Source of the DNA: a virus | DNA length: 31,669 nt | IMG/VR virus record: IMGVR_UViG_3300020439_000042 | Location: 1-31,669 of that record | Strand: one strand, 5' to 3' | In this document: positions 609 to 19,360 of the stretch, piece by piece | Layout of the letters: every line of letters starts with the position of its first letter | How positions within the stretch are numbered: the first letter of the stretch is position 1 | The notes under the pieces: generated by a model | The model's input: only the letters and a program-made list of their open reading frames with translations | The model's database searches: none | Told to the model about the DNA's origin: nothing | Made by a program: the position numbers and the translations under genes

Positions 609-1361
609 TTAAGATTCATTTTGAACTAATAGAACACAAAAAGTTGCAGCACACTTCATATTATTAGTAGGAGACAATGCCCTTATTTCAATATCTGATT
701 TCTCTTGAATTTTGATTGGAAATTTATATTCTCTATCAACACTATTTACATTTGTATGAATCGTGTCCTGTGCCCTCCACGCACCATCATTTGCATCATG
801 AAGTCTTTTCATCAAGAAAACATCACCATCAGCTTTCGCAGTTGATACATTGAATTGATAGATATATCCAGTGTATCCTGCAGGAACTGTATATAATGCC
901 ATAAAGGTTTGTCCTAGACCACTTGCCGTTGGAGAACCTACAGTACGAATTTGTGCAAGATTTGTTGCACCTTGATTTACACTTATAGTTCCTTCATTAC
1001 TTCCAGTTGAACCAGAAGATGCAACAAATGCACGAAATACTCTATAGAATTCTACAGTTCCTGCAGAACCACCAACAGTTAAAGTTTCTGAAACTTGATT
1101 AAAATCGGAGTCAAGACCTTCAACAGTCACAGTTCTTGCACCAGTTCCAGATGCTGAATCATCATTGTCTGTACTTGTAACTGTTAAAACTCCTGCAGAA
1201 GTTAGGTATGTATAAAGACCACCACCATCCCAGATGGTTTCTAATGAACCATCAATATCATCATTATTACCAAACTTTATGATGTGAAATGCACCACGAA
1301 CTTTACCACGAGAAACATTGAGTTCCCATGCCTCGTCCCAAATATAATTTCTATAACTCAT
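609..1361 (-). CDS. Conserved phage structural-type protein, 250 aa
   Basis: The function is not known. The protein is beta-rich and has no signal peptide, membrane segment or coiled coil. It opens with a short Trp/Arg-rich segment (MSYRNYIWDEAWELNVSRGK), followed by an HIIKFGNNDDIDG segment and a TIWDGGG motif (about residues 27-48). Next comes a long Thr/Val/Gly/Ser-rich part with GTGARTVTVEGLD, and then a TVPAGYTGYIYQF strand pair. I recall this arrangement (FG.N.DID, W.GGG, GTGARTV, YTVPAG) from uncharacterised proteins of tailed phages, usually among virion genes. A decoration or tail-associated role is my inference. Its ATG overlaps the TAA stop of the upstream gene (TAATG at 1363-1359), which points to translational coupling with the 112-residue protein. 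It lies directly before gp17. Confidence 0.8.
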   Translation of the reverse strand: MSYRNYIWDEAWELNVSRGKVRGAFHIIKFGNNDDIDGSLETIWDGGGLYTYLTSAGVLTVTSTDNDDSASGTGARTVTVEGLDSDFNQVSETLTVGGSAGTVEFYRVFRAFVASSGSTGSNEGTISVNQGATNLAQIRTVGSPTASGLGQTFMALYTVPAGYTGYIYQFNVSTAKADGDVFLMKRLHDANDGAWRAQDTIHTNVNSVDREYKFPIKIQEKSDIEIRALSPTNNMKCAATFCVLLVQNES

Positions 1362-1699
1362 TAGTCAACCCAACCCAATTTTCCTGGATGATATCTTTTT
1401 ATATCACCAAATTTTACTAATGGTTTTTGTTCTACTGGATATATTCTTTGAACAATCGCTCCAGGATATTCACCTTGAAGTTGTTCTGCTAACTCTTGAT
1501 TTGTTGGTAGTCTTACAGAATTTGCTTGTTCTAACTTCACTCTGTAAATACTACCCATCCAAACAAAGTCTGCTTGGTATTGATAGTTCTCTTCTACTTG
1601 TTGTTCTGGTGTAGCAGAATTACCACTCACATTGAGGGTTCCATTAAAGTCACCGTGAATAGTGACAGACTCATTTATGAATTCTTTGAAATCTTTCAT
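1361..1699 (-). CDS. Small protein with capsid-targeting-like N-terminus, 112 aa
   Basis: I chose the ATG at 1699-1697 over an in-frame upstream ATG at 1711 because it forms a TGATG overlap with the stop of the 381-residue gene and gives a meaningful N-terminus. That N-terminus, MKDFKEFINE followed by Ser, closely resembles the ten-residue capsid targeting sequence of T4 internal proteins (MKTYQEFIAE in IPIII as I recall it), which the prohead protease gp21 cleaves after the Glu. The rest has a short glycine/asparagine segment, then a domain at about residues 43-94 (F.W.G..Y.V, a LAEQL helix, YPGAIVQRIY). That domain recurs in the 381-residue neighbour. It ends in Gly-Trp-Val-Asp. Localisation inside the capsid is an inference from the N-terminus only. 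The molecular function is unknown. Confidence 0.8.
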   Translation of the reverse strand: MKDFKEFINESVTIHGDFNGTLNVSGNSATPEQQVEENYQYQADFVWMGSIYRVKLEQANSVRLPTNQELAEQLQGEYPGAIVQRIYPVEQKPLVKFGDIKRYHPGKLGWVD

Positions 1700-2844
1700 C
1701 AGCACTTCCAACGACGACGGGCTTTACAGATTGCTTTATCTGGTGTCTTTGAGCAATCAATATTGTGCATCTTTTGTTGTCCGGCAGAACGGGAACAATA
1801 AGACTTACGTCTCTTTGCATCCTTACTACCGGGTTTGGGATCACCAGTCACAGCAGTCTTTAGTTTTGAACCAGGATTTTCACGACGGTATGCAGCCACT
1901 GCCTTTTTACTCATACCGTCAGTTTTATCGGATTTATTAACTTTTTGCCAATCTTCTTCAATTTCAACTTCTTCCTTCACACCAACATTCAACATTGGTT
2001 CACTTGGATCATAAGGTGCAAGATAAAAATGTTTTACAAAAGAACCGGGATACACTTTTTCAAGAGCATCTTGAACTTCACTTCTTGCAGGTTTTCTGAC
2101 TTCTGGGAAGAAGATCTTCATCATCATATACTTACCTCTCCAAGTAAATCCAACTAGGTATACATTACCATTCTGTGCTGGAACTCTTGTCGCCTCTTCA
2201 ATGGTCTCTTCCTTTTCCTTTGTCTCTTCACCAACTGGAACACAATTAGGAACCATTTTGTTTCCTTTCTTCTTCATACCCTTTTGGGTATAACCAACCC
2301 AACACTTCTCATCAAGAACTTCAACTTCAATACCAGCATTTCTCATTGAGTTGATCTGTAGTTCAGTAAATTCAGGAAGAGCCAAGAATTCTTCATTCTT
2401 TGACTTACCGTAATTTGCAGCACCTTTTTTACGACACTGAACCAAACGACCAGATGCATAAGCAGAAGGCCAAACTTTTGCAGATGCCTTGACCTTATGG
2501 TAACATGCATCCTTTTTACCACTACCTTTACCCTTCTTATCTGCTTCGTTGATTTCCATTTCTTCTTTCATTTTCTTTTTTGGTTTGTCAGTTGAAACGT
2601 AAGTAGGTTTTGCAGCACCTGATTTTGATTGTTGATTTGGATCAGCTGCCTTCTTTCTACGAGCCGCAGATCTTCTTTCTGCAGGTGTCATACTTGCTCT
2701 CTTTGATGATGAAACACATTTAGGTGTTCCTTCACCAGGTTCATCACTTGCACAGGTACCACCAGTAACTACATTAACCCAACCAGATTTACCATCCTTA
2801 GATTTGGATCCTTTAAACCACTGATGTAAATTACCTTCCTGCAT
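1699..2844 (-). CDS. Basic, cysteine-containing multidomain protein, 381 aa
   Basis: This is a string of small domains joined by acidic linkers. Domain A (about 6-88) has WFKGSKSKDGKSGWVNV, paired Cys31/Cys43 and MTPAERRSAARRKK. Domain B (111-148) has DACYHKVKASAKVWPSAYAS and QCRKKGAANYG. Domain C (about 152-204) has CWVGYTQKGMKKKGNKMVPN followed by CVP. Domain D (226-285) resembles the C-terminal domain of the next gene. Domain E (297-381) has GMSKKAVAAYRRENPGSKL and ends in a Cys/Arg/Lys-rich tail. Domains A, B and E resemble small domains of unknown function common in marine T4-like phages (I believe DUF5872 and DUF6321, from memory). The linkers contain INE-A (98-101) and IEE-A (215-218), which fit the [LI]-x-E/[AG] rule of T4 prohead protease. 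A late promoter lies 23 bases upstream of the ATG. The function is unknown; a capsid-internal, possibly DNA-contacting role is only a suggestion. Confidence 0.85.
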   Translation of the reverse strand: MQEGNLHQWFKGSKSKDGKSGWVNVVTGGTCASDEPGEGTPKCVSSSKRASMTPAERRSAARRKKAADPNQQSKSGAAKPTYVSTDKPKKKMKEEMEINEADKKGKGSGKKDACYHKVKASAKVWPSAYASGRLVQCRKKGAANYGKSKNEEFLALPEFTELQINSMRNAGIEVEVLDEKCWVGYTQKGMKKKGNKMVPNCVPVGEETKEKEETIEEATRVPAQNGNVYLVGFTWRGKYMMMKIFFPEVRKPARSEVQDALEKVYPGSFVKHFYLAPYDPSEPMLNVGVKEEVEIEEDWQKVNKSDKTDGMSKKAVAAYRRENPGSKLKTAVTGDPKPGSKDAKRRKSYCSRSAGQQKMHNIDCSKTPDKAICKARRRWKC

Positions 2845-18934: not shown

Positions 18935-19360
18935 TTAAGTATTTATATCTTTACTTACATTCTTTAACATCTTTTGAAGATCTGCCGTTGAACCAACAAA
19001 TAGTGCATTATTCACAGTAGTAGGTCCTTTTGCTTCTTCTTCCTTATTCACATCTTTCAATTTTTTCTGGAGGTCCATCAGTTTATCAGTTGCATCAGAG
19101 ACATTTTTAATCAATTGTCCTGCAACTTCATATGCACGAGGCATCTCACTTTCCTGTGCAAGTTCTAGAATACCATTGATTGCCTCTTGACCCTTTTCAA
19201 TGATTGAATAAAGATTTCCTCTCGTATATTCATAATCTTTACGAATATCTTCCTGAGAGTTTTCGTATTTCTCTATTCTTTTTTCTATTTCGTTCTTTTC
19301 TTTTTTTACCTCTATTGGTTCTACGTCAAAAGTTTCGTTAAGCTTTTCATACTTGTCCAT
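18935..19360 (-). CDS. gp16: Terminase small subunit gp16
   Basis: This is the small, mostly helical subunit that recognises DNA and stimulates the gp17 motor. It is 141 residues (T4 gp16 is 164). Residues 1-45 are charged helix (VEPIEVKKEKNEIEKRIEKY). The central part (46-100: IRKDYEYTRGNLYSIIEKGQ, then EAINGILELAQES, RAYEVAGQLIKNVSDATDKL) fits the central oligomerisation region of T4-like gp16. A coiled segment KLMDLQKKLKDV leads to a flexible tail with TTVNNALFVGSTADLQKML. It directly follows gp15, as in T4. Unlike T4, gp17 does not follow: 18.3 kb intervene. The ATG is preceded by a GAGG Shine-Dalgarno. The last codons contain the promoter for the next gene. Confidence 0.9.
   Translation of the reverse strand: MDKYEKLNETFDVEPIEVKKEKNEIEKRIEKYENSQEDIRKDYEYTRGNLYSIIEKGQEAINGILELAQESEMPRAYEVAGQLIKNVSDATDKLMDLQKKLKDVNKEEEAKGPTTVNNALFVGSTADLQKMLKNVSKDINT
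18940..18947 (-). promoter_or_regulatory. T4-type late promoter -10 element inside the gp16 3' end
   Basis: The minus strand reads TATAAATA, exactly the T4 late consensus, formed by the Asp-Ile-Asn-Thr codons at the end of gp16. It lies 18 bases upstream of the 111-residue gene and would start the accessory cassette independently of the neck block. Confidence 0.7.

Follow-up and report, generated by a model that had tools for sequence, protein, structure and literature searches.

The question raised by this locus is whether a small protein of a cyanophage-like virus carries at its N-terminus a capsid-targeting sequence of the kind established in T4. Our literature search found no capsid-targeting leader described for cyanophages. 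The window, by which we mean the whole stretch of DNA analysed (31.7 kb), is a fragment kin to the T4-like cyanophages as judged by sequence comparison. An open reading frame on its minus strand (1699-1361) encodes 112 aa and begins MKDFKEFINE/SVTIHGDFNG, the slash here and below standing before the residue that would follow the cut. Ser11 (1669-1667, minus strand) directly follows the leader. The features concerned are:

1361..1699, minus strand: 112-aa leader-bearing protein of the phrog_1742 family, with a predicted mature part of 102 aa (pI 5.3)
1670..1699, minus strand: capsid-targeting-like leader MKDFKEFINE, residues 1-10, with K2, F/Y4, F7, [LIM]8 and E10 kept in homologues
1667..1678, minus strand: predicted gp21 cleavage site INE/S, an L/I-x-E motif, with the cut between 1670 and 1669
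609..1361, minus strand: downstream 250-aa protein with an overlapping start, whose positional counterpart in S-SCSM1 (SSCSM1_31) is an annotated virion protein
1699..2844, minus strand: upstream 381-aa basic (pI 9.6) multidomain protein, a predicted precursor cleaved by the prohead protease

The start codon that gives MKDFKEFINE had been chosen in the preliminary description of this DNA, and that choice was upheld. The ATG overlaps the TGA of the upstream gene (TGATG, 1701-1697), Met1 is conserved, and the sequence upstream of this Met differs among homologues. At the other end of the reading frame, the stop codon overlaps the start of the downstream gene (TAATG, 1363-1359). The phrog_1742 gene is located among head and terminase genes, and this setting is conserved, with an annotated virion protein often adjoining the phrog_1742 member and the terminase large subunit next.

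Comparison of the 112-aa protein with the phrog_1742 profile gave an E-value of 8.7e-30 over residues 1-93, which is most of the protein. The family had 338 matches in IMG/VR and 137 in GenBank (E 0.1), the latter all in phages named Synechococcus, cyanophage or Prochlorococcus. Across 43 homologues M1 was invariant, F7, E10 and S11 were present in 43 of 43, as was Phe or Tyr at position 4, and K2 was present in 42 of 43. Residue 8 was Leu in 21, Ile in 14 and Met in 8, and the eight Met residues fall outside the T4 L/I-x-E motif. The T4 leader given in the preliminary description, MKTYQEFIAE, proved correct and begins both ipII and ipIII. Amber-suppression work on T4 IPIII assigned capsid targeting mainly to residues 4 and 7 and processing to residues 8 and 10, and gp21 cuts after L/I-x-E (PMC9026906). 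All four positions are conserved in the phrog_1742 family, the window having I8 and E10. The resemblance first proposed for a single sequence was thus borne out, and the leader turned out to be well conserved among homologues, where poor conservation had been named beforehand as a refutation. Residues 12-22 were likewise conserved, and it is recurrence on other proteins, not conservation by itself, that sets the leader apart. As to hosts, nearly all of the GenBank matches were from Synechococcus phages, and the two Prochlorococcus-named records are those of Syn33, whose stated host is Synechococcus. T4-GC190, a cytidylyltransferase considered below, was by contrast found in 24 Prochlorococcus-named records; the records are not independent in either case.

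Whole genomes were scanned at the DNA level with a strict pattern, MK.[FY]..F[LIMVF].E. The T4 control returned ipII, ipIII and gp61.1. Twelve cyanophage genomes yielded 20 sites: 7 in phrog_1742 members, 9 in the T4-GC190 cytidylyltransferase (mature sequence unrelated to that of the phrog_1742 protein) and 4 in others. A charge-swapped decoy pattern had no match in 13 genomes, and a reversed pattern had 1 match across 41 records. We also built a leader profile from the family, which scored 24 bits on the 112-aa reading frame and about 0 or less on other starts in the window. When N-termini from two cyanophage genomes were shuffled, none of the 216,400 resulting sequences reached 24 bits and 6 exceeded 10. 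As the profile was derived from the phrog_1742 family itself, the high score of the window's reading frame is expected, and the independent evidence is the behaviour of the profile on other proteins. A search for the same leader on other proteins of the genome had been suggested; the leader does recur in related complete genomes, whereas the window fragment contains one occurrence only.

The scan of IMG/VR placed the leader on at least 34 clusters of mature sequences (leader removed); these clusters came from pairwise searches, by which distant relatives may have been split or chained. Of the 77 leader proteins among the IMG/VR matches listed, 45 had Ala or Ser directly after Glu10, a position that the pattern left free. 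T4-GC190 relatives in IMG/VR keep MK[ST]F..F[LI].E[STN] with few exceptions, and Sf-FS3 has both leaders in slightly altered form (MRSFKQFMSE and VKSFLEFITE). The S-PM2 cytidylyltransferase is, as annotated, without the leader. The leader is therefore modular, being present on proteins with unrelated mature parts.

The virion proteome of S-CREM2 has been published from mass spectrometry (PMC10665884). The strict pattern matched three genes in this genome, encoding a SAM hydrolase, an APH-like kinase and a cytidylyltransferase, and these are exactly the three 'regulatory' virion proteins (Fisher test, p = 0.0019 versus the non-structural proteins and 0.013 versus all virion proteins). When the family-only profile was run over 219 S-CREM2 proteins, five scored above 0; mass spectrometry had detected every one of them in virions, and they all belong to the non-structural class. 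The corresponding Fisher test, with a relaxed pattern that was widened after inspection of the data, gave p = 2.5e-5 versus the non-structural proteins (28 of 219) and 6e-4 versus all virion proteins. A Mann-Whitney test on the S-CREM2 leader scores, with every virion protein set against every non-virion one, was flat (p 0.50), as expected because most structural proteins are without the leader and the signal is confined to a few high scores. The S-CREM2 authors caution that non-structural proteins possibly co-purified (PMC10665884).

Mass spectrometry places the T4-GC190 cytidylyltransferase in the virions of S-SM1, S-SCSM1, S-CREM2 and S-SZBM1. It begins MKKFSAFLNE/A in S-SM1, and its start in S-SZBM1 reads MRFRQFIIE/A. 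The profile gave two high scores in S-SCSM1, of which one, the cytidylyltransferase/NMNAT, was detected in the virion; the other, the phrog_1742 member SSCSM1_30, is absent from the annotated virion proteins of that phage. The S-SZBM1 member, SSZBM1_191, is not in Table 1 of the S-SZBM1 virion proteome. Few tryptic peptides are predicted for phrog_1742 proteins, but the S-SZBM1 homologue should yield several, so it is possible that the phrog_1742 protein is at low copy number in virions, or absent.

The protease that such a leader would require was sought in relatives, as the window fragment ends before the gp21 region. Six of seven close relatives have a gp21 with the GHP and SSRG motifs, and the site in their gp23 is conserved, the T4 cleavage position reading FLSE/A, FLTE/A or LME followed by Ser or Thr.

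The best explanation for these results, and one that we hold to be likely, is that MKDFKEFINE is a T4-type capsid-targeting sequence on a new family of cargo. Residues 1-10 would serve as the targeting sequence, with Phe4 and Phe7 docking the precursor onto the prohead core; the gp21 serine protease would then cleave at Glu10, behind the I-N-E motif, and a mature protein of 102 residues would stay in the head. Computational support for capsid targeting is good and comes from the conserved positions, from the presence of the leader on unrelated proteins and from the match to S-CREM2 virions. To this extent the original proposal stands; set against it are the two virion proteomes, S-SCSM1 and S-SZBM1, in which homologues are unlisted. 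We infer that the 112-aa protein itself is packaged and cleaved after Glu10. By analogy with T4, the mature protein is likely ejected into the host with the DNA, and on the T4 precedent it would act there early in infection.

The same two proteomes would also fit a protein that its leader brings to the prohead to assist the core or scaffold and that afterwards is degraded or leaves the head, so that it acts in assembly and not in the new host. The location of the gene among head and terminase genes is in keeping with such a role, as is the fragmentation by gp21 of T4 core proteins such as gp22 and gp67 (PMC9026906). The mature part contains one further L-A-E (residues 70-72), which is cuttable in principle; however, it lies inside a predicted helix of the folded domain. 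Moreover, leader-bearing proteins of known activity persist in S-CREM2 virions, and we regard the assembly role as unlikely, at roughly one chance in a few. Packaging and cleavage of phrog_1742 proteins are deduced from sequence, and the leader might instead be an N-terminal interaction motif for another partner (tail, membrane or host protein) that has converged on the targeting pattern. That the T4 targeting and processing positions are both reproduced, that a small residue follows as at other gp21 sites, and that the motif picks out virion proteins in S-CREM2 make such convergence quite improbable. Ten residues are few, which would favour chance resemblance in a single short N-terminus; invariance of the leader across 43 homologues, its recurrence, and the decoy and shuffle controls refute this idea, to which we assign practically no weight.

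A structure model of the 112-aa protein, predicted from window and IMG/VR sequences only, had a mean pLDDT of 65.6, with low confidence up to residue 37 and a predicted beta-beta-alpha-beta domain at residues about 40-90. Pfam searches with the protein and 35 homologues gave no convincing family, and a PDB profile search gave nothing convincing. Foldseek returned no significant fold match (best E 0.28), and the best VIA-align hit (Z 4.7, T7 Gp2) was within noise. T7 Gp2, phage p6, Dmd and phycobilisome linker chains were considered as fold relatives, a T7 Gp2-like or CpcD-like fold among them; their Foldseek and VIA-align rows were weak and within noise, and we base no functional claim on these rows. 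That the protein mimics a phycobilisome linker was an idea dropped because sequence support was lacking.

Like T4 IPII and IPIII, the 112-aa protein has a ten-residue N-terminal leader with K2, an aromatic residue at 4, F7, I8, E10 and a small residue at 11; the leader is found on non-homologous proteins, and the gp21 protease is present in the window's relatives. No similarity was seen beyond the leader, and the mature protein is acidic (pI 4.5-6.7 across 43 homologues), whereas the mature T4 internal proteins are basic. The leader is the one link between the 112-aa protein and the T4 internal proteins. T4-GC190, the cytidylyltransferase/NMNAT-like virion protein, shares the leader and the genomes; its mature sequence, that of an enzyme of roughly 290-440 aa, is unrelated. 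T4 Alt is also packaged, loses a short propeptide to gp21 and is injected to act on the host, but its propeptide is different and 7 residues long, and Alt is an unrelated ADP-ribosyltransferase.

The product of the upstream gene resembles a precursor of four domains joined at I-x-E sites, which the same gp21 protease would cut. Its parts are:

2545..2553, minus strand: predicted inter-domain cleavage site INE/A, residue 100, an I-x-E motif
2194..2202, minus strand: predicted inter-domain cleavage site IEE/A, residue 217, preceding the domain related to the 112-aa protein
1954..2193, minus strand: domain akin to the ordered part of the 112-aa protein (E 7e-5; phrog_1742 E 0.009)
1954..1962, minus strand: predicted inter-domain cleavage site IEE/D, residue 297, an I-x-E motif
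1708..1929, minus strand: DUF6321 domain (Pfam PF19846)

The three I-x-E motifs coincide with apparent domain joints. Shuffling gave an expectation of 24 for [IL]xE/[AS] in 56 homologues of the upstream protein, against 72 observed. At the joint preceding the related domain, P1 was Glu and P3 hydrophobic in 46 of 46 sequences with variable flanks; in this search P1' and the positions after it were prescribed and P1 and P3 were left free, and the homologues are not independent. The upstream protein has a homologue in S-SCSM1 that carries a virion-protein annotation based on mass spectrometry. Short leader-bearing proteins of S-CREM1, S-SZBM1 and Sf-FS3 also contain DUF6321 or the domain related to the 112-aa protein, DUF6321 being found in those of S-CREM1 and S-SZBM1. 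The upstream gene resembles what has been predicted for the polyvalent proteins of phages (PMC5512222) in encoding a multidomain virion protein; it differs in that its domains are small, of unknown function and split by predicted prohead-protease sites.

We lean slightly towards a broader reading, in which marine T4-like phages use the leader as a general code for packaging, dozens of unrelated effectors being loaded into the head by it, and the locus is a cassette, its domains occurring either singly with a leader or joined in a precursor with a prohead-protease site at each joint. If so, the sequences of uncultured phages could reveal the effectors that they inject. Should the leader work as in T4, it would provide a sequence rule for cataloguing the proteins delivered to hosts by ocean phages, and would explain the SAM hydrolase, kinase and cytidylyltransferase in cyanophage virions, which the authors feared had co-purified. 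What cyanophages inject would then become directly testable.

Several other candidate leader proteins were noted. T4 gp61.1 (record L106 967-1131; T4 18966-19130, minus strand), annotated as hypothetical, begins with the leader MKTFKEFIKE, and its sequence after the leader (VAGDSGGNPENISIGTTSGAVVNKGP) resembles the gp23 segment just past the gp23 cleavage site; it is a candidate for an unrecognised capsid-targeted T4 protein. To the eye, some leader-bearing IMG/VR proteins (records L317 1085-1591, L255 3736-4149 and L275) resemble small ADP-ribosyltransferases (YHGT...GF...) and bring T4 Alt to mind; they had no Pfam match, and for one of them PHROG gave a weak match to RNA 2'-phosphotransferase. 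The virion-detected Cas9-like S-CREM2 gp12 (record L359 7704-10313) contains LRFASFMAE/A about 16 residues from its annotated start, and a downstream start could give it a leader-like N-terminus. S-SRM01 encodes a repetitive leader-bearing protein of 447 aa (MKSFSQFLEES; record L155 1501-2841) and a Cys-containing one of 67 aa (record L148 1501-1701), the latter also present in four IMG/VR contigs.
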